Virus record (IMG/VR): IMGVR_UViG_3300012271_000020
Span: 1-43,267 of that record
Strand: one strand, 5' to 3'
DNA: 43,267 bases
Origin: a virus
A program made the translations under genes and the position numbers. The notes below the pieces were generated by a model. The model was not told the DNA's origin. It saw only the letters and a list, made by a program, of their open reading frames with translations, and did not search any database. Positions 3,946 through 19,410 of the stretch are shown here, piece by piece; positions within the stretch are counted from its first letter, which is position 1, and each line of letters starts with the position of its first letter.

Positions 3946-4905
3946 TTGGGTATCTTTCAAGATGCGTCCGAACACAGGTACGGCAAGACGGCTCGACACT
4001 TTCAGGTGTCCGGCTCCTACATCAATGAGCTTTTCTCTTCCGAGAAGTACGTTGACCTACCTGCCGAATACGTCTCCACTAATTATTCACACGTTGATGA
4101 TGACGTGCTCTGGCCTAATCAGCCGGTATCTCTTGAGTCTGTGGATTCAAAGCAGCACGCGTTGGCGATTGTCACCCCTGACGGTAGAGGGCTAACGCCT
4201 GCCCGTCAAAACATCGAATACTACGGGATCAAACCTCGTAACCGTGAGCAAGCGCAACTGTTCAACTTGATGGATGACCCTGAAGTGCGTGTGATCGTGG
4301 TCACGGGTGCGGCGGGCACAGGAAAGTCGACAGCGATCGGTGCTTACGCTCTTGACAGGGTGATGAAAAAGGGGGAGGATTCGTTTGCGAAGATGATCCT
4401 GTCCAAGCCACTGGAGATTGTAACCAAGACAAGGTACTGGGGAACCGTACCGGGAGACGAGAACGATAAGTTCGGACCCTTCCTCAAGTCTTTCTCTATC
4501 ATGTTTGAGAACATGATCGGCAAGTCTGGTGCCCAGTACATCAAGACAGCTATCGAGAAGAAAATCATCGAGTTCATGCCTCTTGAACTCATGCGAGGTG
4601 CCACCCTTCGAGATGCGATCGTCTGGTATGACGAGGCACAGAACCTGAACGCGCACGAGGCGGCTACCCTGGGTACCCGTATCGACGACGTAGGTAACTC
4701 CAAGCTCGTCTTGTCTGGAGACCTTAACCAGAGAGACCGTCAGAACCTCAAAAGGTCCATGACGGGTCTACACAAGCTCTGTACCTCCCCTTACTTTCTC
4801 AGGTCACCTTTGACCGCACACGTTGACCTGAAGGTCATTGAGCGTGGTGAGATCGCGGAGTTGTTCCACAACGTCTTCGAGAAAGACATCGAAGACCGCG
4901 ACTGA
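3946..4905 (+). CDS. phoH: PhoH-like ATPase
   Basis: This 319-residue protein has a PhoH-type P-loop ATPase domain. Walker A is GAAGTGKST near residues 119-127, and an IVWYDEAQN Walker B follows near 225-233. The LSGDLNQRD segment near 253-261 is typical of PhoH proteins. The roughly 95 residues before the ATPase domain are not recognised. PhoH-like proteins are widespread in phages and are thought to be RNA-linked ATPases or helicases; the exact job is not settled. The start is the TTG at 3946. It has GAGG 6 nt upstream, and an in-frame stop at 3931 excludes any earlier start. The gene converges on the AAA+ gene with a single base between the stop codons. It is one of the few plus-strand genes, reading from the divergent control region. 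Confidence 0.85.
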   Translation: MGIFQDASEHRYGKTARHFQVSGSYINELFSSEKYVDLPAEYVSTNYSHVDDDVLWPNQPVSLESVDSKQHALAIVTPDGRGLTPARQNIEYYGIKPRNREQAQLFNLMDDPEVRVIVVTGAAGTGKSTAIGAYALDRVMKKGEDSFAKMILSKPLEIVTKTRYWGTVPGDENDKFGPFLKSFSIMFENMIGKSGAQYIKTAIEKKIIEFMPLELMRGATLRDAIVWYDEAQNLNAHEAATLGTRIDDVGNSKLVLSGDLNQRDRQNLKRSMTGLHKLCTSPYFLRSPLTAHVDLKVIERGEIAELFHNVFEKDIEDRD

Positions 4906-4906
4906 T

Positions 4907-6580
4907 TTAGTTCATATCTATATCTGACAGCGCACGAAGAGTCTGAGAGGTAACACTCTCAGACTCTTCTCGTAGGTGCGTGGGTTCAGAAGCAAACCTC
5001 GCGCGCACCCCCTCATCACGGTCAGGGTCATAAGACACCCACTCGGTGAGCTTGTCGATATCTTCCCTCAAGACCTGAGAGAGAGGCGGCTTGTCTTCAA
5101 TCGCCTGCAAAAAGTGTTCTGTCTCCAGGGACTTTCCACGAACAAACGCGTGACGTAGACCCTCCTTAACCGCTTTCTCAATCTCACGGCCTGTAAGCCC
5201 CTCCGAGGCGTGAGACATAGCTCCATAGTCCAGAACGTCTCTGGAGCCCATTTCGGGCGTCCAGTACCTATCTAACTGCAACTCGAAGCACTCACGGCGT
5301 GCCAAAGCGTCTGGCAGGTTCACGAAGAATATCTCCTCGAATCGGGAGATCATCTCCGGGGGGAGTGCGTCAATGCCGTTGGCGGTTGCGACCATGAACA
5401 CATCTTCGGCGTGCTCTTCATACCAAGACAGGAAGGTTCCGATGACCCTTGCGGTCGTCCCCGAGTCTGTACGAGAAGAAGAGCCCAGACCTGCGAACCC
5501 CTTCTCAATCTCATCAATCCACACCACACAAGGGCTCATGGATTCGATATCTTTGAGCGCTCTGCGCATGTTCGACTCCGAGTCTCCTACTCTGGGTCCG
5601 AACACCTTACCGGGGTCAAACCTCAACACGGGAAGGTCAATCTCGTTCCCCAGGGCCTTGGCGGTGAGGCTCTTACCACATCCCGGTATACCTACCAACA
5701 AAACACCCTTGCACGGGGGCAGCCCCCAGGACTTACCTTCCGGGGTAAACGAGGCACCCGCCTCTTTTAGCCATACCTTGAGCCTGTCCATTCCAGCGAT
5801 GTCTTTGAAGGCAAGGTCTGTGTTGACGACCTCCAAGAAGTCACGCGTAGGCAGGTAGTCACGTCTCTTGCGTACTACATCAGCTACCGTAATGACGAAA
5901 TCCTTGTCGGCCATCAAGTAGTTAAGCATCTCACGTATCTGATACCCTGTCAAGCCCTCGCACGCTCGGATGAACTCATCGGGGATAGGGTCTGCGACGT
6001 CGCGTCCCGCAGGGAGCGTGAAGTTCTCTACCAGTGCCTTTTGAGCCGGGGTAATGCCGGGCTCTTTTGCAGCGAGACGTGTGTTGTCTTCAAAGGCGCC
6101 AAGCTCCGCTCGTAATTCCTGTGCTGGGATAGAGCCGTAATGGTACACCTCTACCAAACCTTGAAGGTAAGTAGGTACGATCCCCGTCTTGGACACGAGG
6201 ATGAGGCTACGTTGAGAGGCAACGTTGCGTTGTGTTGCCAGGGCAAAGTTTTTGAGGGAGCGACGGACCGAGGGGTTTTTTAGGTGGGTGTCTGCGTCCA
6301 GAAGAACGTGGTACAGGTTATCCCTCTTCGAGGACTTCGAGGCACGGTAGGCTTCTTTTATCACGGGCAGAAGCTGAAACGAATTCACGTCCTCGGGGTA
6401 CCTCAAGACTGACCATTCTTCGATGTACTGGTCGGCTTTGAGCAAGCCAAAGCTTTCATTCCACACCAGCACGTCGCAGGTAGGCCGAACCTGTTTGAAG
6501 ATGTCTTCAATCAGACGATCCTCCTCATCGGTGACCACCATAAGAAGGGGTGGTAGCACATCAAGATAGGTCTTCAACAT
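4907..6580 (-). CDS. Ycf46-like AAA+ ATPase
   Basis: This 557-residue protein has a C-terminal AAA+ module. Walker A is GIPGCGKS at residues 297-304. Walker B is VVWIDE around 352-357, and SRFEEIF near 412 carries the expected arginine finger. A small helical lid domain ends near residue 500. The first 250 residues resemble the N-terminal domain of Ycf46-type ATPases, with a LLDADTHL segment near 93-100 followed by an RRSLKNF helix. No HExxH protease motif is present, so it is not an FtsH protease. The ATG at 6580 has AAGGA 8 nt upstream and overlaps the previous gene by 20 nt. It lies in a block with DUF1257-like and DUF2997-like genes. It probably remodels a protein complex, but its substrate is unknown. 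Confidence 0.8.
   Translation of the reverse strand: MLKTYLDVLPPLLMVVTDEEDRLIEDIFKQVRPTCDVLVWNESFGLLKADQYIEEWSVLRYPEDVNSFQLLPVIKEAYRASKSSKRDNLYHVLLDADTHLKNPSVRRSLKNFALATQRNVASQRSLILVSKTGIVPTYLQGLVEVYHYGSIPAQELRAELGAFEDNTRLAAKEPGITPAQKALVENFTLPAGRDVADPIPDEFIRACEGLTGYQIREMLNYLMADKDFVITVADVVRKRRDYLPTRDFLEVVNTDLAFKDIAGMDRLKVWLKEAGASFTPEGKSWGLPPCKGVLLVGIPGCGKSLTAKALGNEIDLPVLRFDPGKVFGPRVGDSESNMRRALKDIESMSPCVVWIDEIEKGFAGLGSSSRTDSGTTARVIGTFLSWYEEHAEDVFMVATANGIDALPPEMISRFEEIFFVNLPDALARRECFELQLDRYWTPEMGSRDVLDYGAMSHASEGLTGREIEKAVKEGLRHAFVRGKSLETEHFLQAIEDKPPLSQVLREDIDKLTEWVSYDPDRDEGVRARFASEPTHLREESESVTSQTLRALSDIDMN
4936..4969. repeat. Perfect 14-bp inverted repeat between convergent phoH and AAA+ genes
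   Basis: GAAGAGTCTGAGAG (4936-4949) is followed after a 6-nt loop by its exact complement (4956-4969). The hairpin starts 31 nt after the phoH stop codon and lies inside the last codons of the AAA+ gene. A stem of 14 perfect pairs in coding DNA is very unlikely by chance. There is no T-run on either side, so it is not a standard intrinsic terminator. It could still stop or protect the phoH transcript 3' end, or act on both converging messages. Confidence 0.65.
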
Positions 6581-6986
6581 GTCGGAGGTCCTTTAGGATA
6601 GAGGCTTTCTCTGGAGGAATTATGACGTAAGCCATGCGCATCGTCCCGACAGGCAACATTCCCCCGTCAAAAGATAGCTGGACATGGGATAGCGCCGCGC
6701 ACTGCGGGCACTTGAACTCCCAGTGGGTTTTTGAAGCTATTCGGACACGGCTGAACAGGTTCAAAATCCCTGGAGTTAGTTTGGGCGGAGTCGTGTTCCA
6801 AGTCAACTCCAGGGGTAGACCTCTCTTGTAACCAAAGGTCTCACTTTCAGGCGTGATCAAAGCGTATACAAGAGGGTTGCCACAAAGACATTCATGCACC
6901 ACACGGCAAGGCTGGCTTCTGCCCGTCTCGGGTGTTTTTTCCGTAACGCCTTTTAGCAGAGACTTTAGCCTTGCGTTCACCGGCAT
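6561..6986 (-). CDS. Zinc-ribbon-like hypothetical protein
   Basis: This 141-residue protein has Cys residues placed like a split zinc-binding site: C33-L-C35-G and C93-P-Q-C96, with one extra Cys at 27. The stretch between them is beta-rich, and the N-terminus is basic (ARLKSLLKG). I do not recognise a family. The pattern suggests a zinc-bound adaptor or nucleic-acid-binding protein, but this is inference from four cysteines. The ATG at 6986 has AGGGG upstream. It lies 4 nt after the DUF1257-like gene and overlaps the AAA+ gene by 20 nt, so it belongs to the same block and may work with the ATPase. Confidence 0.7.
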   Translation of the reverse strand: MPVNARLKSLLKGVTEKTPETGRSQPCRVVHECLCGNPLVYALITPESETFGYKRGLPLELTWNTTPPKLTPGILNLFSRVRIASKTHWEFKCPQCAALSHVQLSFDGGMLPVGTMRMAYVIIPPEKASILKDLRHVEDLS

Positions 6987-6990
6987 TTGG

Positions 6991-7374
6991 TTACCCCTTG
7001 ACTGCTACGATCACTATATCTCCCGGTTCAATAAGAGGATCTTGATCATATCCCGTGGCGACATACTCTTTGACGATCTGATCACCTTGCTGCATCGCTT
7101 CCCACAGGTAATGCTTACGTAGGTAGTGCTGCGTCACGCTGCCTAGCACACCGCGCGCCATGCGGCAATCCTCGTCATAAGTCGCCTCGAAGTTACCCCC
7201 TGCACCTTTTGACAGGGTGATCCCTCTGTACATCAGCGTGTGACCTTGTTCCGTAGAGAGGATACGATATATCCCAGCACCTGCGTCTACGAAGCCAAGG
7301 CCCCTCTCTGTCAGTACGGCTTTGAGCATGTCCTCGTGTTTTATATCACACTGGACGGATATTCTACGGCTCAT
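6991..7374 (-). CDS. DUF1257 (Ycf35)-like protein
   Basis: This 127-residue protein resembles the DUF1257/Ycf35 family. It has an N-terminal strand and helix (MSRRISVQCDI, then LKAVLTERGL), a Y-D-EDC segment near residues 67-71, and a long helix with VTQHYLRKHYLWEAMQQG near 80-97. The family counterpart of the last segment has the same V-T-Q-x-Y start. Family members are found in cyanobacteria, plastids and some phages and have no firm function. The ATG at 7374 overlaps the stop of the DUF2997-like gene as ATGA, with GGGAG upstream, so the two are translationally coupled. The family call comes from memory and needs a profile search. Confidence 0.65.
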   Translation of the reverse strand: MSRRISVQCDIKHEDMLKAVLTERGLGFVDAGAGIYRILSTEQGHTLMYRGITLSKGAGGNFEATYDEDCRMARGVLGSVTQHYLRKHYLWEAMQQGDQIVKEYVATGYDQDPLIEPGDIVIVAVKG

Positions 7375-7571
7375 CAGTCTTCTCCCTGGTCAAGGTCTGA
7401 CTCTTGTAGAGTCCGAGCATCAGGCAAGACCTCATTGGAGGTCACATCACCCAGGGCGTGTGCGACCTCTTCGGCGCGAGCGCAATCCACTACGCCACGG
7501 TCTAGCACCACGATGTGCGTCTTGCCGTCGGGCTTGATCACGACCATATACGTCATTTTATCTTGCATCAT
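7374..7571 (-). CDS. DUF2997-like small protein
   Basis: This 65-residue acidic protein looks like DUF2997. It has a short strand with VVIKPDGK near residues 10-17, a turn with a glycine and a lone cysteine (GVVDC near 26-30), and then a helix ending in ALGDV near 39-43. DUF2997 proteins are about this long and are often found next to DUF1257 genes, as here. No function is established. Two adjacent ATG codons (7571 and 7568) are possible. The first gives an ATGA overlap with the previous stop codon and is used here; the second has better spacing from AAGGA. The choice changes one residue. Confidence 0.6.
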   Translation of the reverse strand: MMQDKMTYMVVIKPDGKTHIVVLDRGVVDCARAEEVAHALGDVTSNEVLPDARTLQESDLDQGED

Positions 7572-8293
7572 TCATCCTTCAAGACCTTGCCATCCGACAC
7601 GCGGACAGTGAGTTTGCCGTTCTTACCTCTCTTGGGAGCCGTATCGGGATTAATCGCCCAAGGGTCCTTCTTGGTAATCAGCGCGCTTGGTCGTGGCTTG
7701 GGCTGCGAGGGTCCCAGAATGATACCTCCCCTTGGTACCTCGGTGTTCTGCGCGCGCTCACGCCGTTTAACGGGCTTGGAAGCCTCTTCCTGCCTCACTG
7801 GCGGGCTTGGAGGCTCGGGGGCGGCCTCGGGTTCGTCTTCAACCTCCTCGACGGTCTCCGGGGCTTCTACTGTCTCATAAGATGCAGCGTCAGGCTTGGG
7901 AGGTGCAGACGTCCCGCCACGGAGTGACTGTAAGGCGTCGTCTAGCTTGGACGAGTCGGTCTCATCGGGCTTGACATCCCCGTGACGCACTACAGTGCCG
8001 TCCTCTTTCATGTCTACCCACCCGCCATAATACTCCAGCGTCTCCACGTCAACTGTCTCAAAATGCTTTGAGGTGATATCCCCGAACTTGGGGTCTTCGG
8101 GGTCACCAAAAACCGGGTTGTATAGGGTTTGCTCTTGCATGATCATCCGGGTCATCCATTTCGAGTCCGTGAACCGGCTGCGCGTGCAGTCCGGGTTGAT
8201 ACACACGTCACAGAATCCCTTCTTGAAGGCGTCCAATGACCCTTGCTGGGGCATGGAATCCATGCACTCCTGTATGTAATCTCTTTTCGACAT
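7568..8293 (-). CDS. Cys-motif protein with disordered Pro/Glu-rich tail
   Basis: This 241-residue protein has a folded N-terminal part of about 110 residues with C28-x2-C31-x4-C36 and a further Cys at 10. A tryptophan/methionine-rich segment follows (KWMTRMIMQEQ near 45-55). The spacing could bind zinc or an iron-sulfur cluster. From about residue 110 the chain is low-complexity, rich in Pro, Glu and Lys (EPEAAPEPPSPP), and is surely disordered. It ends with a short basic part. The ATG at 8293 has AGGAG just upstream, right against the T-run of the 8303-8334 terminator. It is the first gene of the DUF2997/DUF1257/AAA+ block. The family is not recognised. Confidence 0.7.
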   Translation of the reverse strand: MSKRDYIQECMDSMPQQGSLDAFKKGFCDVCINPDCTRSRFTDSKWMTRMIMQEQTLYNPVFGDPEDPKFGDITSKHFETVDVETLEYYGGWVDMKEDGTVVRHGDVKPDETDSSKLDDALQSLRGGTSAPPKPDAASYETVEAPETVEEVEDEPEAAPEPPSPPVRQEEASKPVKRRERAQNTEVPRGGIILGPSQPKPRPSALITKKDPWAINPDTAPKRGKNGKLTVRVSDGKVLKDE

Positions 8294-8302
8294 GACACTC
8301 CT

Positions 8303-8334
8303 AAAAAAAAGGGCCGGAGGGCAAGCCCCCGACC
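8303..8334 (-). terminator. Intrinsic terminator after the polymerase gene
   Basis: On the minus strand a 9-bp GC-rich stem, with two G-U pairs and a 5-nt loop (positions 8334 to 8312), is followed at once by eight T residues (8310-8303). This is a standard rho-independent terminator, placed 40 nt after the DNA polymerase stop codon. Its T-run touches the ribosome binding site of the next gene, so no promoter fits between the two. Confidence 0.85.
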
Positions 8335-8373: not shown

Positions 8374-11319
8374 TTAGATCCCTTCATAGAAGGCCAGTGC
8401 CTTGAAGACTACTGGGTCAATCTCAACCCTCTTGTCGGGGTCAGTCAACTCGTCTCCCTGTACCGTGACGACCTTGAGCACGTGCGTAGGCTTGAAGAGG
8501 TTTGCCTTCTTCATAAGGCGGCAGGCTTCCTCTACACGCCTCAAACGTAGCATATAAGACAGCAACGCCTCACGTGAAGGGATCGCCACAGACACCTTGT
8601 GTTCGTACTCAGGGAAGCGGTCTTGGACCGGGGCCTTGACCTCTGGTGTCTCGGGATCGGGATCGGGATCGCTGGGAGGCTGCGGGCTCAGTAGTGACAT
8701 GGAGGTTCCTTCTTCAGCTTCAGGGTCTAGAGCTAGTTCAATCTTACGTTGGGCCTGGAACTCATCTTCTGTGACGTAGGCTGTGCCATCCCAGACCATG
8801 CGAGTGCCTTCGTCATTACGGTAGTACATACCCTTGGATATCGTGATCTTGTCTAGCAAGTAATGAGGGGTCTCACCACCTTCGTTATCCGTAGGGGCCA
8901 TGCCGGTCTTGGGGTGAAGGGCGTGCATCAAGGTCCAGTTGTAGCCAGGGCTCCAATCCGAGTTGAACTCAACGTCGGTGATAAGAGGGATCGGCCATTT
9001 GACACGATGCGAGAACTCAGTCATGCACTCGTCAATGACGGGCAATACCTCATCGAGCATATCCTGGCGAATCTCAAACACAAGCTCATCGTGAATGGTG
9101 AGGCACAGGCGGCATTGGTCAAGCCACTCCCGATCTTTGATCGCCGCATACACCTTCGCCATCGCGTATTTGATCAGGTCTCCCGTAGCGGTGCCCTGCA
9201 CGATAGAGTTGATGGCGTTTCGCTCCTGCTTCGCCCTTAGCCACGACTCTTGAGAGTTGATGTCCCACAGACGAATCTTGCGCCCGATAGCCGTCTCAAC
9301 CTCAAGGTCTTGGTGCGCTTGATTGATCGTACGTTCCATCCATTTTTTGAAGACAGGTAGGCCGTTCAAGACCTTGTTTCGGATCTCCCAACCTTCTTTT
9401 GAGGTGACTCCTGTTGCGCGCGCAATAGCGCCCCCACCGCCTCCGTAGACGATTGAGAAGTTGGCGCCCTTGCCGTTGTGTCGCTTACGCTTGAACTCCG
9501 ACGCAGGAAGGTTCACTACATCATCGCCATAGATGATCTTCGTGGTGAGCGTGTGGAGGTCTCCGATCGTATCCTCTCCGCAGGTCGGACACAAGGCGGG
9601 AGGGGTCTCCACGATCTTCCATTTGTTCCTGCCAAGCTTCTCGGGTGGGGTGAACTCATGGTCGCACGAAGAGCAACGGTAGAACTCGGCAAGCCAGCGA
9701 GGCTCTTCACAAATGCTCGCGACGGCTCGAAGCTCAAGGCCCGAGTAATCGATCGCGACCAGTACGTAGCCCTCACGCGCCACGATACACGAACGGACTG
9801 CGTTGGGGACCGAGTAGAAGCGCTTCTTGACGGGCTCTTCGCGCTCACACTCGGAGGCGAAGGGGCACCCCTCGCAAGACTCTCTCACGCATAGCTCATC
9901 GCCTGTGCGGTGGTCCTGCATAAAGTGCCCGTCATAGATGCGCCGCAAGAAGCCCGAGTCCATAGCGTCAGTCAAAGCCGGGTCCCAAGACGCATTTACG
10001 TCCCCTTCGCCTTCTGGCCTCGATTTGATGCGTCTGGTGTATATCTTGGCGTAGCTGTTCGTGCCGGGAACCGACTGGACATTGAGACCCGAGTAACCCT
10101 GTCCGGGCATACCCTTGGAAGCTGCGAACCTTCCTGTATCCACGCGGTTGGCCTGAAATGAAAAGCGGATCGTCGAGTCTTCTTTGCGCGTGTTCTCAAT
10201 GATCGGACTGACGTAAGTGCCCAAGACTTTTTGAAGCCCTCTCATCTTCTGCACGAGCGCCAGGAAGGGGAAGCGCGAGCCGTGCTCTTTGGCAAGCTCC
10301 TCAATGGCCGCGCTGTTCGTCTTGACTTGACCCGAATTCTCGGTGACCTCCAGATCAATTTGAGCGAACGCACGGTCTACCAGTTGCAAAGCCTGGATCG
10401 CGCTGCCAAGCTGTTGAGGCGAGTTGATATCGTAGGTGTTGCGGACGTCTTGCTCATGTTTGGTGAGCGCCTTGGATAGAGACGCGTAAATCTCATCCTG
10501 TGTCTCCTCAATCATCAAGGTGATCTCGTTGGCGAGGTTGCGCGTGTAGAGTAGGTCTACTTTCATGCGGTTACGCTCTGTCCAACGCAGGGCAGGTACA
10601 AGCGCCTTCTCCACTGCGTAGGTGCTCTTCTGCTCCTCGCCGTGCTCTTTGAGGTGATCGTAGAGCATGAACGTGCAGATGGCGTCCGCCCCAGCGTACC
10701 TCAATACAGCGGGATCGGTAGGGTCCAACGTCGAGAAGCTGCGGTCACGCACCTTCTTGGGGAAGAACTCTTTGAGGTCGTGCATCTCCAAGCCAAGGTA
10801 CTGCTTGGACAGGTGCTTTAGGCCGTGCATCTTGGCAGTGGAATCCTTGAGGTAGTCGAGGATCAACGTATCCTCAAACTGGGCGACCGAAGGATCGGGC
10901 ACATGAGCAGACGACCCGTAAAGGAACTCCTGATCGAACGATGAGTTGTGATAGATGATACGCGTTGTCTCGCAGAACTCACGGAAGAGCTTGTCTACCT
11001 CCATATAAGGCAAGTTGCACGGCCTCATCTTGCCATCGTCCGTGATGTGTCTCACGGGGACGTAAAAGCCCTCCTCATCGTCATAGCAGAAGCAGTAGCC
11101 GACGATCTGGTGGAACGTCCTGCCATGCTCATCAATCCTGTTGTCAAGACCTTGCGTCTCAAGGTCCAGTGAGCAGAGGCCGCGTGCCGTAGCCTTCTCA
11201 AGCTCCGCTTTGAGGTGGGTCATATCCTCAATGCGCGTGAACTTCTTTGTAGCCATCCAGGGCAAGGGGTCCGGTGAACACGACTGCGACGCGTTAAAAA
11301 ATTGAGTAATATTGTTCAT
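8374..11319 (-). CDS. Family A DNA polymerase with 3'-5' exonuclease
   Basis: This 981-residue replicative polymerase has all three proofreading motifs: D52-x-E54 (Exo I), N125/D129 in YHNSSFDQE (Exo II), and Y208-x3-D212 (Exo III). The polymerase motifs are A (AIDYSGLELR, near 524-533), B (KRKRHNGKGANFSIVYG, near 606-624) and C (TIHDELVFE, near 741-749). No 5' nuclease domain precedes the exonuclease. Two insertions are unusual. One of about 80 residues before motif A carries four cysteines near 476-490; the other after motif A carries a CxxC...CxxC zinc ribbon near 549-580. A C-terminal extension of about 170 residues has an acidic low-complexity linker. The ATG has AGGAG 5 nt upstream. A terminator follows the gene. 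Confidence 0.95.
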   Translation of the reverse strand: MNNITQFFNASQSCSPDPLPWMATKKFTRIEDMTHLKAELEKATARGLCSLDLETQGLDNRIDEHGRTFHQIVGYCFCYDDEEGFYVPVRHITDDGKMRPCNLPYMEVDKLFREFCETTRIIYHNSSFDQEFLYGSSAHVPDPSVAQFEDTLILDYLKDSTAKMHGLKHLSKQYLGLEMHDLKEFFPKKVRDRSFSTLDPTDPAVLRYAGADAICTFMLYDHLKEHGEEQKSTYAVEKALVPALRWTERNRMKVDLLYTRNLANEITLMIEETQDEIYASLSKALTKHEQDVRNTYDINSPQQLGSAIQALQLVDRAFAQIDLEVTENSGQVKTNSAAIEELAKEHGSRFPFLALVQKMRGLQKVLGTYVSPIIENTRKEDSTIRFSFQANRVDTGRFAASKGMPGQGYSGLNVQSVPGTNSYAKIYTRRIKSRPEGEGDVNASWDPALTDAMDSGFLRRIYDGHFMQDHRTGDELCVRESCEGCPFASECEREEPVKKRFYSVPNAVRSCIVAREGYVLVAIDYSGLELRAVASICEEPRWLAEFYRCSSCDHEFTPPEKLGRNKWKIVETPPALCPTCGEDTIGDLHTLTTKIIYGDDVVNLPASEFKRKRHNGKGANFSIVYGGGGGAIARATGVTSKEGWEIRNKVLNGLPVFKKWMERTINQAHQDLEVETAIGRKIRLWDINSQESWLRAKQERNAINSIVQGTATGDLIKYAMAKVYAAIKDREWLDQCRLCLTIHDELVFEIRQDMLDEVLPVIDECMTEFSHRVKWPIPLITDVEFNSDWSPGYNWTLMHALHPKTGMAPTDNEGGETPHYLLDKITISKGMYYRNDEGTRMVWDGTAYVTEDEFQAQRKIELALDPEAEEGTSMSLLSPQPPSDPDPDPETPEVKAPVQDRFPEYEHKVSVAIPSREALLSYMLRLRRVEEACRLMKKANLFKPTHVLKVVTVQGDELTDPDKRVEIDPVVFKALAFYEGI

Positions 11320-11331
11320 TATATCTCCTAT

Positions 11332-11784
11332 CTAATGGTCAGAGGTTGGGACTACGATGATGTAGAACCCCAATCGCCAAAGTTCAAAGACCCTTGACAC
11401 CTGAATTTCTACAGGCACTCCTGCCTCTTCCAGTGCAGCTTGGTAACACACCGGGACCTTGTTATTATCCCCTTGACATGCGCCTTTGTCGTACATCGCG
11501 CAAGACCGCTTGAATGCGCATTGTTTCATCTCAGAGGGTGCCTTTATGAGACACGCCAGGGGTGGTAAGCCCAATTCTTTGATAAGCCTTGTAGGGTAAT
11601 TTCGTAGGGCGTCTTGGTATGCTTCTTGCGTCACCCTTGAAAACAAAGCGCCCAGACGTGACACCTCTGGGTCAGTCTGGAACGCTATCCATTCATCGGG
11701 CCATACGCCCTCATCGTCCTCATGTATGACAAGGATGTCATGCTCTCCCCAGGACGGGTCTTTTAGCTTGAATTGACGAGACAT
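11332..11784 (-). CDS. Four-Cys hypothetical protein in the replication block
   Basis: This 150-residue protein is not recognised. Its central part holds C89-x5-C95-x7-C103-x9-C113, with a fifth Cys at 78, set in the segment QCAFKRSCAMYDKGACQG. Four evenly spaced cysteines followed by VPVCY suggest a metal site, either zinc or a [4Fe-4S] cluster. The N-terminal 70 residues are acidic and the C-terminus is beta-rich. The ATG at 11784 overlaps the primase stop codon as ATGA, and the gene ends 12 nt before the polymerase gene starts. A role in replication is suggested by position only. Confidence 0.7.
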   Translation of the reverse strand: MSRQFKLKDPSWGEHDILVIHEDDEGVWPDEWIAFQTDPEVSRLGALFSRVTQEAYQDALRNYPTRLIKELGLPPLACLIKAPSEMKQCAFKRSCAMYDKGACQGDNNKVPVCYQAALEEAGVPVEIQVSRVFELWRLGFYIIVVPTSDH

Positions 11785-12437
11785 CAGGACCCCAGCGATG
11801 CGATCTTGGCTTCTAGCTTGGTAGCCAGCGCGCGCGCTTTCTCTTCCGAGATACGATCGTGGTCGAGGTCATAGCACATCAAGTCGAAGACGAAATACAG
11901 CCGGGTCACCGCAGCCCTTGACAGGCTTGAGCCCTTCTCCGTGACCAATCGCGCGATCTTACGTTCCAGATACCGTGGGTTAAATGCCTCAGTAGCAGGG
12001 CCGTTCAGGATACCTTCAATCTCCGTGTGTAGCTGAGTCTCCCCGGTCACCTTGTCGACCGCCGTAGGGTCGAAGTAAGCGTGGATAGACGGGATGTTCG
12101 TCACCGCAAACGCATCTTCCAGATACTTCAAGGCTCCCATGAATGACATCCCGTTGTAGTCACGCACCCACTGGATCTGGTCACGAGCTTTCTGACATCC
12201 CCAGCAAAAAGTGTGCCCTCCCAGGTCATTACCGTCACCAGGGTACACGCGAGCCGAGAACCCGTTGTCCTTACCATCCCCGTGCAGAGGACAGGGGTAC
12301 TGAATCTCGACGTTCTCGTTGACGTGTACCCTGATCCCCAAGGTCTCTAGAACCTTGACCATCGGCACCTGTTCACGTATGTTGTCAACGCGCGCCTTGT
12401 AGTATTCCTTACGGGCTCGGTCTAGTGGTTCTGACAT
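11784..12437 (-). CDS. DnaG-type primase zinc-binding domain protein
   Basis: This 217-residue protein has a CHC2-type zinc-binding domain like the N-terminus of DnaG primases: C49-P-L-H52 and C78-W-G-C81, with the usual beta-sheet segments between (GFSARVYP, GGHTFCWG). A short helix with MSFMGALKYLE follows, as in primases. No TOPRIM or RNA polymerase catalytic motif is visible in the rest, so it is either a template-recognition subunit or a shortened primase whose catalytic part is elsewhere. The remaining 100 residues are helical. It lies directly after the replicative helicase gene, a normal place for a primase. The ATG at 12437 has only a weak GTGAG upstream. Confidence 0.85.
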   Translation of the reverse strand: MSEPLDRARKEYYKARVDNIREQVPMVKVLETLGIRVHVNENVEIQYPCPLHGDGKDNGFSARVYPGDGNDLGGHTFCWGCQKARDQIQWVRDYNGMSFMGALKYLEDAFAVTNIPSIHAYFDPTAVDKVTGETQLHTEIEGILNGPATEAFNPRYLERKIARLVTEKGSSLSRAAVTRLYFVFDLMCYDLDHDRISEEKARALATKLEAKIASLGS

Positions 12438-12441
12438 GGGC

Positions 12442-13905
12442 TCACTTGAGGTTCAGGTTAATCGGTCCAGCCTTGCTCGTCTTGGTGAGGTTTTGAATGA
12501 ACCTCGAAGCGAAGTGAATGTCTGCAACGAAGGGGTCGAAGTGCGGGTTGTCTCGGTTCTTGATGCAACCCACCAACGTCTCACCGTTCTCCCTGTATTC
12601 TTTGTTCAGGTACGTGTAGGTGATCACGTCCGCAGTACGCTCCGCCGCTGAGGAATCCGCCAGCGCCTGCGTGTTGTAACGCCCGTCGTTTTTGTCCGCT
12701 TCCTTCTTGCCTTCACGGTTGATCTGGTGTAGGGCTACGATAGGGATGCGCTCACCCCGGTTGAAGGTAAGACACATCTGCTTTGCTTCACGGAAAATGC
12801 TGTTCAACTCCTCACGGTAATCGCCCATATTGCGTGACGCGCCGAGCAATCCGAGGTAGTCAATGAAGACCAGATGGATAGGAGTCGTCTGGTGTACCAG
12901 TTCAATACGGCTCTTGACCATCTGCATGGACGTCTTGGGCTCATCCGGGCACTCCACAAAGAGGGCTCCGTACTCACCTAGCTTCTGGCCTTTCTCAATG
13001 TCGTCAATGATCATCTCGTAGAACTCAATCTCCCTCTTGCTCAGGGGGTTACCGTCGTCGTCTACGCCGTCTCGGATCATACGATAGGAGAGCGGTTCAT
13101 AGCCCATCTTCGCGAACTTGGGGTGGTTCGAGTGCATCACATAGATGATGCGCCTCAACTGCTCTACAGGCATTTCGAGCGAGTAGTAGTAGACGTTATA
13201 TCCGAACATGATGGCCGTCTTGTAGGCCCAGTTGATCGCGAAGGTCGTCTTGAGTTCGCCTGTACTGGCCGCGTGTATCCACAGTTCGCCCGGTTTGATG
13301 CCTCTACACGTCGTGTCAATCTCATTTAGCCCCGAACCCCTGCCCCATGCGTTGCGCGCGTTAGACAGCGTATTTTGGAAGTCTCGACGCACTTCGGGAG
13401 CATCTTTGGTCACGTCGGACCGGAACACGGTACCGCTGTCGCTCATGAGCACCTTGTCGGCTCGTTCCATGAGGTATCGGATCGCGTCTGCGTGGCCCTT
13501 GTAGGTTTGCTTCTTTCGTCCTGTGCCCACATCCATGCCGTTCGCCAGGATGTGTGACGCATCTTTGAGTAGGAAGCTCACCAGACGTTCGTTCTGATCT
13601 TTGAGCGCTGACCTCACCAGATTCTCAAAGTCCGTCTTGAGGTAGGTGGTGCCAAAGTTCGCGATCTCTTCTACACGGTCCAGCACCTCGACTTGCTGCG
13701 CCTTCTCGAAATAATCACGCACCGAGTTGATTGACGGAGCCTGCGTGTAGGTGGTAGCATAGTCTCGGATGTAATCCCAAATCTGTGCGTCCTCGCCATT
13801 GACGAACTCAAGGTTGATGTCGGAAAGCGTGTAGAGGTTCTTGCTCAGGTCTTTGGATGAGATCGTGTCTTGTACGTTGATAACAGATCGTAAAATCTTC
13901 TTCAT
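12442..13905 (-). CDS. DnaB-like replicative helicase
   Basis: This 487-residue protein has the RecA-type core of DnaB-family helicases. The P-loop is ASTGELKTT around residues 213-221, with lysine at 219. Walker B is LVFIDYLG with aspartate at about 349. The HQINREG segment near 391-397 matches the conserved glutamine motif of the family. The P-loop is a variant: GELKTT replaces the usual GxGKT/S. The first 170 residues are helical, as expected for the N-terminal domain and linker. It should form the hexamer that unwinds the fork for the neighbouring polymerase. The ATG has AAGGA 5 nt upstream. Its neighbours are the loader-like protein upstream and the primase zinc protein downstream. Confidence 0.9.
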   Translation of the reverse strand: MKKILRSVINVQDTISSKDLSKNLYTLSDINLEFVNGEDAQIWDYIRDYATTYTQAPSINSVRDYFEKAQQVEVLDRVEEIANFGTTYLKTDFENLVRSALKDQNERLVSFLLKDASHILANGMDVGTGRKKQTYKGHADAIRYLMERADKVLMSDSGTVFRSDVTKDAPEVRRDFQNTLSNARNAWGRGSGLNEIDTTCRGIKPGELWIHAASTGELKTTFAINWAYKTAIMFGYNVYYYSLEMPVEQLRRIIYVMHSNHPKFAKMGYEPLSYRMIRDGVDDDGNPLSKREIEFYEMIIDDIEKGQKLGEYGALFVECPDEPKTSMQMVKSRIELVHQTTPIHLVFIDYLGLLGASRNMGDYREELNSIFREAKQMCLTFNRGERIPIVALHQINREGKKEADKNDGRYNTQALADSSAAERTADVITYTYLNKEYRENGETLVGCIKNRDNPHFDPFVADIHFASRFIQNLTKTSKAGPINLNLK

Positions 13906-13913
13906 ATCTTTCC

Positions 13914-14669
13914 TTAAAAGTCAATGTCTTGGAATGCGGCGGCGCCCTTGCCCTTGTCTTTGCCCGTAGCTGACGTGGTTTGCGCAGCTTTGAACCCGAA
14001 GCCGCTTGGACGTGCGATCACTTGACGCTGCGGCTTCAGGGTCTCTTGCTTGTACTCGGTCTGGAAATACCACTCTAGCTCAGGGCTCCAAGCCAAGTTG
14101 TGACCCTCTTTGAAGGTCAGTTCGTGGGGGTTTACTACCCATGTAGGCTTGTCTTGGAACTGCCGTGATTTCAGGCACTCCATTACAACGCCTGACAGCG
14201 CGACATTCTTGTAACTTTGGTACCCCAGTTGCACGATGAGTAGGTCGGGACCCCTGCCGTAGCTCGACACAGAGGGCCAGCCCTCATTCTTACCCAGGAA
14301 GATATCAATGAGATCCATATCTGTCGTCATGCGCCAGTAATACTCAAGCGGTCGGTTCCACAGGTAGCTTCGTAGGTGTGCGAGGAAGTCTGTTCGATTT
14401 GACTGCAAGAAGAGGTTGCGTTCTGCGTACTCTTCGAGCATGTTATCTTCGATGATGTCAGCCTTGAATACCGCACCTCCTACCTTCTCTGCGAACCTCC
14501 TAAGCTCCAGACACTCACACCTCTTGACCGTGGCGTAAGCGTCCGCGTACTCGCCGTATTGCTTGACGAGTTCTTGATATTCGGGGTCCTCTTCGGACAA
14601 TTGGAGCTTGCCTTTCCCGTGACACTTCTCACAGTTGGGATCACCTTTGGTTTTATGCTTAGTCGTCAT
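13914..14669 (-). CDS. Possible helicase loader (DnaC/DnaI-like), degenerate
   Basis: This 251-residue protein begins with a zinc motif, C13-x2-C16-H-G-x-G and C51-x-C53, which is the pattern seen at the start of DnaI/phage DnaC-type helicase loaders. The middle has PDLLIVQLG near residues 141-149 and KPTWVVNP near 174-181. These resemble the Walker B and sensor strands of that AAA+ group, but I see no Walker A motif, so it may not bind ATP. The tail from 215 is Lys/Gly/Ala-rich and disordered. The gene lies just before the DnaB-like helicase, where a loader belongs. The role is inferred from motif and position. The ATG at 14669 has GGAG upstream and overlaps the SNF2 gene by 11 nt. Confidence 0.6.
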   Translation of the reverse strand: MTTKHKTKGDPNCEKCHGKGKLQLSEEDPEYQELVKQYGEYADAYATVKRCECLELRRFAEKVGGAVFKADIIEDNMLEEYAERNLFLQSNRTDFLAHLRSYLWNRPLEYYWRMTTDMDLIDIFLGKNEGWPSVSSYGRGPDLLIVQLGYQSYKNVALSGVVMECLKSRQFQDKPTWVVNPHELTFKEGHNLAWSPELEWYFQTEYKQETLKPQRQVIARPSGFGFKAAQTTSATGKDKGKGAAAFQDIDF

Positions 14670-17600
14670 TCTTTTTCTCTCCGTTGCGTGCGTCGTCTAT
14701 CATCCTGTCAAACAAACTGGACACAGGTGTTGATTCAATCGAAATGATCTCCTCTTCGTCATGCTCTGTGGCCGTTCGTATAACCTCGCTTCCTTCTTGC
14801 ACAAGACGCTCCCCCAAAGCTTGCTCGATATAGCCCATCTTCTTCTGCAAGGTCTCTCGGACGTGATGGTCAATCGTCTTGTAGCCTTCGGGCGTCTCGG
14901 ACAGAAGGTGCAACGCATACACCCTGTCATGTGGAGACCCGATACGGATCATACGTCCTACCAACTGAATATAATCACCCGCACTCCAGGGAAGGTCGTA
15001 AAACACCATCACGCGTGCAGCCTGGAGGTTAATGGCCTCCGCACCTGCCATTGTAAGGAAGATCAGGTTCGTGTTTTCCGACTCGACGAATGCCTGCCTC
15101 CCTGCATCTCGTTGCTCCGGGCTCTCATCCCCTGTGATCCTCACCAGACCCTTGGGCACCTTGGTCTTGTCTTCTTCGGGCGACCACTCTTTGTTCGCCT
15201 CCGCTTTGATGCCTACCTTGTAACCGTCCTTTTCCAGCAACTCTTGCAGGCGATTCACCATTGACTTGAAACGCGTGAAGACGATAACCTTCTCGTCTGC
15301 AAGCTCTTCCTTCAAGAGTTCAAGGAAATAGGTCTCTTTGCCCGACTTCACGTCATTGCCAATCAACACGGGAGAGTCGACGATCTCCTGGCAGTAAATA
15401 AGCGAGGTGAGCTTGGTGACCTCACGCTCTTCCTCATCCTCGGTCCCCTGGTTCAAGGTCAAGAGCCCTTCAAGAGCTTCCTGATAAAAGATGTACTGCG
15501 ACTTTTCCATAGGCATAGAGATGTCTTTAACGGTCAGCACAGGTAGCTCATCTGCCACGTCTTGCTTCGCCCTCCCCAGGTAGTAAGGGTCAATCGCCGT
15601 CTTGAAGTCTTGAATATGCTTTCGGGAGTGCCCGATGATCACGGGGATCTTTCGCTTGCTGCCGGGGATACGCTGCATCCTCGTGACGCAATAATTGCGG
15701 TAGAAGCCTTGCTTGGTCCTGAACAGGTTAGGCACGACCACCTTGTAGATTCCGAACCCCTCCTCAAGATTGTTCTTGATCAGAGTAGCCGTCAGGCCGT
15801 ATACTCTATCCGCATTGTTGCTTAACTCACGGAATACGTGGTGCGTCTGCGACTCCGGGTTCTTCACGGCGGTAACCTCGTCCAGAATAAGACAGTACCT
15901 GTGCCCCTCCGAAAAGGCTTTGAAGACCCTCTTATCTCGACGCAGCCTGTGATAGTTGACAATAAGCACTTCGGGTTCGTCATTATCCCAGTTAGAGAAG
16001 TAATCCTCGTAAATCTCTGACCGTTTTTCGGGACCTCCCTTGGATATCCTCCACTTGATCCCCTGGGTGAATTTGTTGATCTCGCCTCCCCATTGATTCA
16101 TGACAGAGGTGTTCGTCACGACAATGACCTTGAGGTCAGGGTCTTTCTGCCAGAGCGCAGCGATCGTGGTGATCGCCTCCAAGGTGTTGTGGTTCACAAT
16201 TCCGTTGGACACAAAGCAATGTCGGGGGTCGTCGACTTCGATGTCGAATACTTCCTCTTGACCTTCAACAAGGCTTACAACGGGGTCGTAAAAGTAGCGC
16301 GTTCGTGCTACCTTATCAAGGGCGACGTACTCTGAAGTAGAATTTAGCCCGTTATCTGCACAAACGTTAAGAAGCTTGTCAAGGAAATCATAGGTAGGGT
16401 TTCGACCTGCATTACGAATGTGATTTAACGTGTTCACAAACGAGGTGCCGTACTGCTTGAACCCACTGCCGATACGAAGAGCGTTGTTACCTCCCGCCGA
16501 AAGAACTTCCTTGAGGAGTCCTCGGAGGGATTCTATCAAGGGTTTACAGTTGGGGATAACATCATGGTTGGCGTTGGCAGGCCGGTCTAGGGCCTCTCCC
16601 AAAGCATCTATCTTGCGTGAAGATACGAAGCCGATCTTGTCTCGATACACCCTGGCGTCCTCTCCAAAGAGGGTAAGTCTCCAGTACGTGTTGTGCTCAT
16701 AGCCTTTGACCTTCTTGACGCTACGGTTGCAGACGATCCCAAACCGGGTAAGCATGATCTGGACTTGTCGACCTAACTCTTCAGATGCCGTTGAGAACTC
16801 AATGCCTCCACTAGAAAGGACGTGACCTTCTCCTTCAAACAGGCCCCTCAAAAACTCAATGTTGCTTTCGCGTGTAGACCGAAGGATGAAATCCGGTACC
16901 GATTTATCTTTGGCCACGCCCTGAGATACGCCATTCTCCGTAAGATACGAGATCAAGGTAGTGCTATGTATGAACTTATCCTTGACGTCTGACATAGTAC
17001 GTCCAAACAGATCGGCGGTCAGACCCGCAATATCGGCGTGGGCTTCTGGGTTCACCTCCGGGCCTTGTGAGATAGAAAAGCTCTGGGCATGGTTGAACCA
17101 ACCTTCGGAGACCAAATACCCCGTCCATCTCGCAAACTCGGGAGTAACTTGAGCCGGAAGGGTTACAGCCTTACTGTTGCCCGCTATAGACACGTCTGTG
17201 TTCAAGGCAGGCTCAACCTCGGGGAAGCCCATCTCGCGCCTCTCGACGCAGATGTAGTCGCCTTCCTGAAGGTCTTGCATCTCGACCCACTGGTGTCCAC
17301 AGTCACGCCACACCAAAAGAGGGTGAACGCGCGAGCCTTCAACCTCGAAGTTGTAGCGCGTGCGCATCTTCACGGTAGGCTTCACGCCCCCGTAGTAGAA
17401 GTTCTTGACGGGAAGCTCTTCGCCGTCCACGAGCACATTCCACTCGCGATCGATAGGCTCGAAAGTCTCGGGTTTCATCCCCGACCAGTCGTGCATATCA
17501 CCGATAGGCACGAGTCCGTAATTTGTTGAAATTAAAGAGTTTTTTATCTGACATTTCCCTAAACCGGTGTCGTCCCCAATGATGAAGCGCTTGGACAACA

Positions 17601-17757
17601 GGGTGTGGAAGACCATCTGAATCTGGTAGTTCCTCAACGAGAACGGGATCTTCTTACCTTTGTACTCGATCTCGCTGCGTAAAAACCGTGAGGCTTTGAG
17701 GTTCAGATTCTCGGCGGCGCGAACCTTGAGCATTTTGGCGTAGATATTAGGGTCCAT
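14659..17757 (-). CDS. SNF2/DEAD-type helicase containing an intein
   Basis: The precursor has 1032 residues. After removal of the 456-residue intein a 576-residue SNF2-like helicase remains. Motif I is GDDTGLGK-T (residues 61-68 joined to 525). Motif II is LILDEVTA with D625-E626, LTATL is motif III, and QLVGRMIRIGS near 929-939 is motif VI. Such helicases translocate on double-stranded DNA and in phages often serve recombination or fork restart, as UvsW-like proteins do. The start is the ATG at 17757. It has AGGA 6 nt upstream and gives MDPNIYAKM; the frame is open further upstream to 17967 but that stretch looks non-coding. The ATP site is split by the intein, so activity requires splicing. 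The loader and helicase genes follow. Confidence 0.9.
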   Translation of the reverse strand: MDPNIYAKMLKVRAAENLNLKASRFLRSEIEYKGKKIPFSLRNYQIQMVFHTLLSKRFIIGDDTGLGKCQIKNSLISTNYGLVPIGDMHDWSGMKPETFEPIDREWNVLVDGEELPVKNFYYGGVKPTVKMRTRYNFEVEGSRVHPLLVWRDCGHQWVEMQDLQEGDYICVERREMGFPEVEPALNTDVSIAGNSKAVTLPAQVTPEFARWTGYLVSEGWFNHAQSFSISQGPEVNPEAHADIAGLTADLFGRTMSDVKDKFIHSTTLISYLTENGVSQGVAKDKSVPDFILRSTRESNIEFLRGLFEGEGHVLSSGGIEFSTASEELGRQVQIMLTRFGIVCNRSVKKVKGYEHNTYWRLTLFGEDARVYRDKIGFVSSRKIDALGEALDRPANANHDVIPNCKPLIESLRGLLKEVLSAGGNNALRIGSGFKQYGTSFVNTLNHIRNAGRNPTYDFLDKLLNVCADNGLNSTSEYVALDKVARTRYFYDPVVSLVEGQEEVFDIEVDDPRHCFVSNGIVNHNTLEAITTIAALWQKDPDLKVIVVTNTSVMNQWGGEINKFTQGIKWRISKGGPEKRSEIYEDYFSNWDNDEPEVLIVNYHRLRRDKRVFKAFSEGHRYCLILDEVTAVKNPESQTHHVFRELSNNADRVYGLTATLIKNNLEEGFGIYKVVVPNLFRTKQGFYRNYCVTRMQRIPGSKRKIPVIIGHSRKHIQDFKTAIDPYYLGRAKQDVADELPVLTVKDISMPMEKSQYIFYQEALEGLLTLNQGTEDEEEREVTKLTSLIYCQEIVDSPVLIGNDVKSGKETYFLELLKEELADEKVIVFTRFKSMVNRLQELLEKDGYKVGIKAEANKEWSPEEDKTKVPKGLVRITGDESPEQRDAGRQAFVESENTNLIFLTMAGAEAINLQAARVMVFYDLPWSAGDYIQLVGRMIRIGSPHDRVYALHLLSETPEGYKTIDHHVRETLQKKMGYIEQALGERLVQEGSEVIRTATEHDEEEIISIESTPVSSLFDRMIDDARNGEKKNDD
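16186..17553 (-). other. LAGLIDADG intein inserted in Walker A
   Basis: This in-frame element encodes 456 residues, from Cys1 (TGT at 17551-17553) to the terminal His-Asn (AAC at 16186-16188), followed by threonine as the first residue of the C-extein. Block B is seen as GSRVHPLLV near intein residue 76. Blocks F and G are FDIEV, then HCFVSNGIVNHN at the end. The homing endonuclease has two LAGLIDADG motifs, TGYLVSEG near intein residue 143 and FLRGLFEGEG near 233. The catalytic splicing residues (Cys1, block B His, terminal His and Asn, +1 Thr) are all present. Both splicing and homing are therefore likely functional. Confidence 0.93.
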
Positions 17758-17782
17758 AAGACTTCCTGGGGTTGATGAGGTT

Positions 17783-18025
17783 ATGTTAGAAACGTATCTT
17801 GTAGGTGCGAAAATCCCCTTGACTTCTTCGGAGGACCCGTGCTTTAATGGGGTCCGAAATAAGAACACCGTACATTTTGAGTATGCAATGCACGAGTTAA
17901 TTATTATGTACTGGCAAGAAGAGGGCGCTAAAGCCGGGGAGTACAAAGGGGTCAGTCTACACTCCAATGCAGAGGCGTATGAAGCTTTTCGGTACCTGTT
18001 GCCTCATAGCGCCAGAGGAAGTTGA
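17783..18025 (+). CDS. Uncertain small ORF, 80 aa
   Basis: An open frame of 80 codons lies between the divergent SNF2 and purB genes. Its predicted product is acidic and soluble, with a plausible helical second half (NAEAYEAFRYLL near residues 62-73), and matches no family I know. Two points speak against it: GAGG lies only 2 nt before the ATG at 17783, and a good plus-strand promoter (17819-17848) lies inside its first half. It could be translated from an internal ATG at 17888, but that has no ribosome binding site either. It overlaps a second small frame (17979-18089) by 47 nt. Confidence 0.35.
   Translation: MLETYLVGAKIPLTSSEDPCFNGVRNKNTVHFEYAMHELIIMYWQEEGAKAGEYKGVSLHSNAEAYEAFRYLLPHSARGS
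17819..17848 (+). promoter_or_regulatory. Sigma70-like promoter, probably for purB
   Basis: TTGACT (17819-17824, 5 of 6 matches) is followed after 18 nt by TTTAAT (17843-17848, 5 of 6 matches). The predicted transcript starts near 17855 and reads through about 260 nt into purB. The spacer length is the same as in the 769-798 promoter. It is the best promoter candidate in the 357-bp gap between SNF2 and purB. Confidence 0.5.
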
Positions 18026-18114: not shown

Positions 18115-19410
18115 ATGCTCAAGCGCTATACTCGTCCCGAAATGGAACGCCTCTGGAGCCTGAAGAGTCAGTACCAGAGCTGGCTCAGGGTTGAAATGTC
18201 AGCCGTTCGTGCTTGGCACGAACATGGTCTTCTTCCAGATGAAGATCTTTGGGAGATCGAAGAGCACGCTCATGTGAACCTTCCACGCATTCTGGAGATC
18301 GAAGCGGAAACGCATCACGACCTCGCGGCGTTCGTCAAAAGCTTGGAGGAGCAGGTACCTTCCAAAGCGGGCAGGTGGATACACTACGGGCTCACCTCAT
18401 CCGATGTGGTAGATACGGCCCTGTGCCTTCGGATACGGGAAGCTTTGGTCTTGCTTAGGAGGGGCTTACGACACCTGGGAGGAGCGATCAGCGTCCGCGC
18501 TAGGGAGCACCGTGATACCCCTATGATCGGAAGGTCGCACGGTATCCACGCTGAGCCCACGACCTTTGGTCTGGTCATGGCCGTGTGGTACTCGGAAATC
18601 CAACGTCACCTCGTACGGCTGGAAGCCTCAATCAAGACCATCTCAGTAGGGCAGCTATCAGGGGCCGTGGGCACCTTCTCACATGTGCCTCCAGAGGTCG
18701 AGGAGACGGCTCTAGGTTACCTTGACCTTACCCCCGTTGATATCTCATCTCAGATCATTCAGCGAGATCGTCATGCTGAGGTCATGTCGTGTCTTGGGCT
18801 GATTGCTTCTTCTATCGAGAAGTTCGCGATTCAAATCCGACACTGGCAGCGTACCGAGGTAGGGGAGGTCTCCGAGAAGTTCAAGTCGGGTCAGCAAGGG
18901 TCTTCCGCCATGCCTCATAAGAAGAACCCTATCCTGTCCGAGAACCTTACGGGTCTTGCCCGTATGATCCGAGGGTACGTGTATCCTGCTATGGAGAGCG
19001 TTGCGCTGTGGCACGAGAGGGACATGTCCCACTCTTCTGTAGAGCGAATCGCGATCCCTGATGCGACCTCCCTACTGGACTTCGCTCTTCACAGGCTGGC
19101 CCGTGTAGTGGAAGAAATGGAGGTGCATCCCGAGGTGATGCTGGAGAACCTGAACTCGACCAAGGGTCTGCCCTACTCTCAAGGGGTCTTACTGACCTTG
19201 GTACAGAAGGGTTTGACGAGGCAGGAAGCTTATGGGCTGGTTCAGGGTCTTGCTCTCAAAGCCTATGAAGACGGCCTTGACTTCCAGGCTATCGTTTGTG
19301 ATGATCCCGCAATCTTGAACGTGCTCACCAAAGAAGAAGCCCTGGACTGCTTCTCGCTGTCCAAGGCCCTTCGGTATGTTCCTGAAATCTTCGATCGGGT
19401 TTTCAGTTGA
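18115..19410 (+). CDS. purB: Adenylosuccinate lyase
   Basis: This 431-residue protein is a full-length member of the aspartase/fumarase superfamily, the same length as B. subtilis PurB. It has TSSDVVDTA near residues 94-102 and GRSHGIHAEPT with catalytic-type histidines near 142 and 145. The flexible-loop signature GSSAMPHKKNP is at 262-272. PurB cleaves adenylosuccinate to AMP and fumarate, and SAICAR to AICAR, in purine synthesis. The ATG has GAGGA 5 nt upstream. The gene stands alone on the plus strand, with a promoter about 265 nt upstream, and converges on the secreted-protein gene with an 8-nt stop overlap. No other purine gene is in the window. All key residues are kept, so the enzyme should be active. 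Confidence 0.95.
   Translation: MLKRYTRPEMERLWSLKSQYQSWLRVEMSAVRAWHEHGLLPDEDLWEIEEHAHVNLPRILEIEAETHHDLAAFVKSLEEQVPSKAGRWIHYGLTSSDVVDTALCLRIREALVLLRRGLRHLGGAISVRAREHRDTPMIGRSHGIHAEPTTFGLVMAVWYSEIQRHLVRLEASIKTISVGQLSGAVGTFSHVPPEVEETALGYLDLTPVDISSQIIQRDRHAEVMSCLGLIASSIEKFAIQIRHWQRTEVGEVSEKFKSGQQGSSAMPHKKNPILSENLTGLARMIRGYVYPAMESVALWHERDMSHSSVERIAIPDATSLLDFALHRLARVVEEMEVHPEVMLENLNSTKGLPYSQGVLLTLVQKGLTRQEAYGLVQGLALKAYEDGLDFQAIVCDDPAILNVLTKEEALDCFSLSKALRYVPEIFDRVFS

Follow-up and report, generated by a model that had tools for sequence, protein, structure and literature searches.

We analyzed a block of five genes on the minus strand of IMG/VR record IMGVR_UViG_3300012271_000020, a viral DNA of 43,267 nt that is probably a fragment of a larger genome (this whole stretch is called the window below). 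The block is predicted to encode a Ycf46-like AAA+ ATPase with DUF1257-like and DUF2997-like partners (together, the trio), a zinc-ribbon-like protein, and a cysteine-motif protein that we call CysP. It closes a replication operon that is conserved among giant phages. Ycf46, DUF1257 and DUF2997 are known from plastids and cyanobacteria as well as from many further bacteria and archaea. Their conserved cluster, of unsettled function, is known; the giant-phage version analyzed here is very divergent and, as far as checked, new.

A replication operon in giant phages

Relatives of the ATPase were gathered from viral contigs, annotated phages, and bacterial and archaeal genomes, and each locus was given an L-number. 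The viral scan, run with a three-sequence ATPase alignment, yielded 80 loci, which were then mapped with Hidden Markov Models (HMMs); viral contigs searched with the window's family A DNA polymerase (PolA) gave no matches. Genes for PolA, CysP, DUF2997, DUF1257 and AAA were co-directed in the same order at 25 loci including the window, and DnaB, primase and p150, a conserved operon protein, were also present at 24 of these, the conserved order being DnaB-primase-p150-PolA-CysP-DUF2997-DUF1257-AAA. The 25 loci reduce to 19 at 90% ATPase identity and to 4 groups at 50%, and many lie on contigs of 250-530 kb (the largest, 529 kb). The L151 contig (322,633 bases), for example, reads helicase, p251, DnaB, primase finger, p150, PolA, CysP, DUF2997-like, DUF1257-like, AAA. 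Because 24 viral loci besides the window show this gene order, the block is not a product of chance, and the conserved co-occurrence expected by a first-pass annotation, which had been made from the sequence alone, is borne out.

The same ATPase family also appears in a second arrangement. In a giant-phage group comprising L201, L205, L206, L214 and L219, the ATPase gene sits between an IF3 gene and a gene in the loader position, upstream of DnaB and primase. L169 carries AAA, a DnaC-like loader, DnaB and primase, with a DUF1257-like gene further on. The IF3 genes directly upstream of the ATPase are at L201:8308-8814 (IF3_N, 5e-26) and, recognized by eye, at L205:8358-8852 and L206:8284-8877. 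A ClpX-like gene was seen downstream of the operon at L173:17597-18868 (zf-C4_ClpX, 2e-12), and weak AAA matches of a similar kind occur in L166, L171, L178 and others.

The features of the window operon are as follows:

4907..6580, minus strand: Ycf46-like AAA+ ATPase, 557 amino acids (Pfam AAA, 1.4e-25; phrog_8638, 7.6e-91)
6561..6986, minus strand: zinc-ribbon-like protein, 141 amino acids (CxC...CxxC knuckles, by eye)
6991..7374, minus strand: DUF1257-like (Ycf35-like) partner, 127 amino acids (held-out HMM, hhalign)
7374..7571, minus strand: DUF2997-like partner, 65 amino acids (hhalign; family-invariant Cys is C30)
7568..8293, minus strand: CysP, with four invariant Cys and a long low-complexity tail (19-sequence alignment)
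8304..8334, minus strand: terminator-like hairpin followed by T8, in the PolA-CysP spacer (consensus match only)
8374..11319, minus strand: PolA (Pfam DNA_pol_A, 9e-60; phrog_17, 4e-93)
11332..11784, minus strand: p150, conserved operon protein of unknown function (blastp to L151, 4e-10; to L040, 2e-9)
11784..12437, minus strand: primase-type CHC2 zinc-finger protein (Pfam Zn_ribbon_DnaG, 1e-5)
12442..13905, minus strand: DnaB-like replicative helicase (Pfam DnaB_C, 2e-25; 34% to L151, 4e-90)

The five genes run co-directed from 8293 to 4907, as tightly coupled as first described: CysP and the DUF2997-like gene overlap by 4 nt, the DUF2997-like and DUF1257-like genes by 1 nt, and the zinc-ribbon-like and AAA genes by 20 nt, with a 4-nt gap between the DUF1257-like and zinc-ribbon-like genes. 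They are part of a longer operon, with PolA, p150, primase and DnaB upstream. PolA and CysP are 80 nt apart in the window, and this spacer contains the terminator-like hairpin (8334-8304; 9-bp stem with 7 GC pairs, then T8); the PolA and CysP genes of L001 and L151 overlap, with no spacer.

The ATPase and its two small partners

Among the five block proteins, only the ATPase had a strong single-sequence family match (Pfam AAA), and phrog_8638, a family of unknown function, matched residues 11-551, that is, its full length. Alignment with 25 cellular relatives gave about 30-35% over the full length. The protein is divided into a degenerate AAA domain (about 1-230) and an active-type AAA domain (about 250-500). 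An AlphaFold2 model built with 42 relatives reached a predicted local distance difference test (pLDDT) score of 85.5, and Foldseek aligned both halves to Cdc48/p97/NVL/AFG2 over 530-590 columns (E = 1e-19 to 3e-21; template modeling (TM) score 0.62, the best among the matches listed). The Walker A (GIPGCGKS) and Walker B (WIDEIEK) motifs, already read in the first annotation, are kept in all or nearly all of the 42 relatives. Motif columns across these relatives show an intact C-terminal half, with Walker A, the Walker B DE, the sensor 1 Asn and an Arg finger; the Arg-finger region of the window protein has one Arg (SRFEE), and many relatives have RRGRFDE. In the N-terminal half, the P-loop is absent from all 42 relatives and its position holds a T-x-E-E-x-R or similar stretch, so conventional ATP binding is not expected of this domain. 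The pore-loop-1 position of the window protein lacks the usual aromatic residue.

The full-length phrog_8638 match, the intact C-half motifs and the linkage to DUF1257 and DUF2997 agree with the earlier identification, and we regard the protein, on sequence and model, as a Ycf46-like tandem AAA ATPase with a predicted Cdc48-like fold. It shares tandem AAA domains over both halves with the Cdc48/p97, NVL and AFG2 unfoldases; unlike them, its N-terminal half has no P-loop and no Cdc48 N domain was seen. With one ATP-binding type AAA domain instead of two, it is not a member of Cdc48/p97, although it may work like one. Nor is it of the DnaC/IstB type, as its best families are of the AAA/CDC48 type and phrog_50 was matched only at 0.32. 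In the ATPase tree, the window, L001 and L151 form one clade (support 99/98) apart from the cellular and other phage branches. ATPases of phage trios are spread over several branches, and long branches leave the deeper placement unsure.

Identification of the small partners depended on profiles. Pfam and NCBIfam searches with the single small proteins of the block gave no significant match: 6991-7374 did not match Pfam DUF1257 (PF06868), and 7374-7571 aligned with nearly the whole Pfam DUF2997 model (PF11211) at E = 0.21 and 11.9 bits, the cut-off being 24.1. An HMM built from 38 DUF1257 proteins, with the window and L001 left out, ranked 6991-7374 first among 521 window open reading frames (E = 9.5e-4) and L001:7467-7808 first in L001 (2.6e-3). 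In hhalign comparisons with the cellular alignment, the DUF1257-like protein scored 94.1% (E = 1.3e-7) with L001 only, 97.9% after adding L151, and 98.6% (E = 5.8e-16, columns 1-107 against 1-127) with 20 giant-phage members. The MSH/MSR start is present, and the homology spans the full-length profile. The DUF2997-like protein scored 94.1% (E = 1.3e-7), and 93.7% (E = 1.9e-7) with 20 giant-phage members; a first DUF2997 HMM of 35 cellular plus phage members had failed to separate the window protein (2.9 bits). Crossed-family controls scored 0.3-0.4% for DUF1257 and 0.1-0.8% for DUF2997. Taken singly and at E<1, 7 of 20 giant-phage relatives matched Pfam DUF1257 (best, 2.9e-4) and 10 of 20 matched Pfam DUF2997 (best, 5.4e-5). 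One Cys is invariant in the DUF2997 family alignments. By profile homology, therefore, the two proteins are DUF1257-like and DUF2997-like homologues, in line with the families first guessed; we use these names and do not claim scored membership because the single-sequence scores fall under the Pfam curated cut-offs.

The AlphaFold2 model of the DUF1257-like protein (pLDDT 85.4) found no confident match in the PDB; the best E was 0.035, and the matches had KA1-like or BamC-like topologies with TM scores of 0.38-0.47. Its closest viral structure match was a 147-residue protein (E = 1.4e-3), equal in length to the DUF1257 protein of Rhizobium phage RHph_I4. Proteins starting MPCYVTYK in L002 and L006-L008 resemble DUF1257 by eye and were ruled out by hhalign (1.6%).

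CysP, the zinc-ribbon-like protein and relatives of the trio

Cysteine clusters had been noted in two of the presumed partners, and both are present: CxC and CxxC in the zinc-ribbon-like protein, and C10, C28, C31 and C36 (C-x17-C-x2-C-x4-C) in CysP, invariant in 19 relatives. The tail of CysP is long, of low complexity by eye, and presumably disordered; NTP, DPW and GA(K/T)V-type motifs in it are conserved. In L040 (LR745208, a 485-kb phage), L152 and L153, CysP follows PolA with no trio alongside, and no DUF1257 match was found anywhere in LR745208. Because CysP adjoins PolA in phages without the trio, we assign it as a partner of PolA and not of the ATPase, and the trio therefore appears as an addition behind CysP. 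For the same reason, CysP was ruled out as a phage stand-in for a ferredoxin or radical-SAM member of the trio. The zinc-ribbon-like protein matched no family at E<0.01 in Pfam, PHROG and further family searches, had no relative in phage records, and is absent from the operons of the relatives. With this gene private to the window and CysP tied to PolA, the conserved module has three genes, not five. The idea of one five-gene remodeling system thus narrows to the AAA, DUF1257-like and DUF2997-like genes, for which it is a reasonable proposal.

We examined 80 cellular AAA loci for the partner families. Within 4 kb of the ATPase, DUF1257 was present in 22, DUF2997 in 23, and both in 18. An NrdG-like radical-SAM (Fer4_12) gene occurred in 16 of 29 cellular loci with DUF1257 or DUF2997 vs. 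2 of 51 without (Fisher p = 2.5e-7, uncorrected for kinship, so that non-independent related genomes are counted; some of the contigs are short). At L046, L050, L059, L077, L090, L097, L100 and L104, the radical-SAM gene, often with a small membrane-protein gene, adjoins AAA-DUF1257-DUF2997, which suggests a system of four or five genes in cells. Among phages, L029 carries AAA, DUF1257, DUF2997 and a radical-SAM gene together. No Fer4_12 gene was found in the window, L001 or L151 records, and the window also gave no Radical_SAM match; L001 and L151 do have radical-SAM matches, at a large distance from the operon. Cyanobacteria have a duf2997-ycf35-fed7 cluster (PMC4284462). The ycf46 operon of Synechocystis is stress-responsive, being induced by iron deficiency and oxidative stress among others, and it comes with a carbonic-anhydrase phenotype whose route is unknown (PMC7496141).

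The giant-phage trio shares its three families and its tandem ATPase plan with the cellular cluster (e.g., Synechocystis slr0374, which is Ycf46). It differs in its diverged ATPase, in having no radical-SAM or ferredoxin partner, and in its position behind PolA-CysP in a replication operon. Phage RHph_I4, Pseudomonas phage SM1 and Rhodobacter phage RcKickapoo likewise hold AAA, DUF1257 and DUF2997 in one block, but with an ATPase of another branch, beside lysis and structural genes and without PolA-CysP. Phage AAA-DUF3150 modules (L007; Mycobacterium phage Bora gene 95 and neighbors) have the same AAA family with no P-loop in the N-terminal half and differ in their partners, DUF3150 (L007) and other small proteins. 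Such modules lie at L007:7332-10664 (DUF3150, E = 1e-16) and L035:4875-8567; the one in L035 and its kin includes a small protein ending HSHDGGxTWH. In several phage trios, a small conserved protein with an SHVEP...MSP-type motif directly follows DUF2997 (L026:10410-10667, L031:9474-9803, L032:9245-9496).

The block had been put forward as an undescribed system, which is true in part. RHph_I4 was already annotated with AAA, hypothetical, DUF1257 and DUF2997 genes, and GenBank lists the phage trio under nothing more than domain names or hypothetical-protein labels. A limited literature search, with most subscription papers outside its scope, found no paper that pairs Ycf46, DUF1257 or DUF2997 with a phage system. 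As far as checked, the giant-phage replication-operon form with CysP is undescribed.

The gene content marks the window as phage DNA: it encodes PolA, DnaB, the primase zinc finger, an intein-bearing SNF2-type helicase, a head protein, a dCTP deaminase and PhoH. The PhoH-like ATPase gene (3946-4905, plus strand) converges on the AAA gene, one base apart. The SNF2-type helicase gene (14659-17967, minus strand) carries a LAGLIDADG-domain intein (Pfam Intein_splicing, ~173-594) that resembles an insertion in the LR745208 PolA gene (L040:2173-7449), likewise with intein/LAGLIDADG matches. An adenylosuccinate lyase (PurB-like) gene lies on the strand opposite to the operon's at 18115-19410 (plus strand; Lyase_1 9e-51, ADSL_C 4e-18), and a GIY-YIG homing endonuclease gene at 20598-21350 (minus strand; 3e-10).

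Possible functions of the module

Our preferred reading, which we hold tentatively, is that the trio is an AAA+ remodeler with two dedicated small partners that acts on the phage replisome or matures one of its proteins. By analogy with AAA+ biology, the ATPase would assemble as a Cdc48-like ring, in which the N-terminal AAA domain is a non-hydrolyzing platform and ATP-driven work is left to the C-terminal one. Its two small partners, DUF1257-like and DUF2997-like, would be dedicated adaptors or cofactor proteins of the ring. Judging from gene order, the ring may act on assemblies from its own operon (PolA with CysP, DnaB, primase) and remodel, recycle or mature them while the genome replicates. 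The trio travels as a unit in other phages and in 18 of the 80 cellular AAA loci, so joint action of its three proteins is probable, and a replication-linked role is favored because the second arrangement also ties the ATPase to DnaB and primase.

Several observations weigh against this remodeler. A replication role is not general, since the trios of SM1, RHph_I4 and Rhodobacter phages lie outside replication contexts and have lysis and structural genes nearby. Replication can do without the trio, because L040, L152 and L153 have PolA-CysP with no adjoining trio. In cells, the module is tied to genes for radical-SAM proteins and ferredoxin instead of replication genes. Many of the 25 loci belong to a single clade, which leaves few events behind the operon link, and in the window phage the hairpin may uncouple the block from PolA.

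The cellular linkage is also what gives weight to a cofactor-maturation machine, in which AAA, DUF1257 and DUF2997 would insert, repair or activate a metal or radical (iron-sulfur type) center in a client; for phages, this client would be Cys-rich, for example CysP, or some other enzyme of phage or host. We consider it somewhat unlikely: the radical-SAM genes of cellular loci and of L029, the fed7 cluster, the iron and oxidative-stress response of the ycf46 operon and the invariant Cys of DUF2997 speak for it, but the window, L001 and L151 records have no Fer4_12 gene, radical-SAM matches in L001 and L151 are remote from the operon, and CysP-PolA occurs without the trio. Since CysP is a Cys-rich neighbor of PolA, cofactor maturation and replisome remodeling can overlap. 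Improbable in our estimate is a general early-expressed proteostasis or host-takeover machine, whose trio would unfold or disassemble host proteins and merely share the early replication transcript. Trios outside replication operons, other unfoldases (the ClpX-like gene of L173) and takeover genes (IF3 in L201) in giant relatives would fit such a machine; the strict order beside PolA-CysP in the giant clade and the second arrangement beside DnaB-primase argue against it.

A role of the ATPase as loader of DnaB or of a sliding clamp is highly improbable. It adjoins DnaB and primase in several arrangements, but it is predicted to fold as a Cdc48-like tandem AAA protein and not like DnaC or RFC, and we reject the idea because a relative has a separate DnaC-like loader, encoded between AAA and DnaB in L169 (phrog_50, 5e-8) and, weakly, in L214 (0.006). 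It is scarcely conceivable that the small proteins only resemble DUF1257 and DUF2997 and that the block consists of unrelated phage genes beside an AAA protein; the window proteins score under the Pfam cut-offs, but the held-out HMM, the profile-profile values (E = 6e-16 and 2e-7, with controls at 0.1-0.8%) and the gene position all oppose this.

Within the preferred replisome remodeler, a more specific and, in our view, unlikely version is that the giant-phage module is a Cdc48-like machine working on the phage's own replisome (PolA-CysP, DnaB). It would be a counterpart of Cdc48-driven replisome disassembly or recycling and may have kept metal- or radical-dependent chemistry from the cellular form. 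The trio in the giant-phage replication operon offers a concrete place to test a module of unsettled function, and its operon placement, together with the cellular radical-SAM tie, yields two competing, testable ideas: a replisome remodeler and a cofactor-maturation machine.

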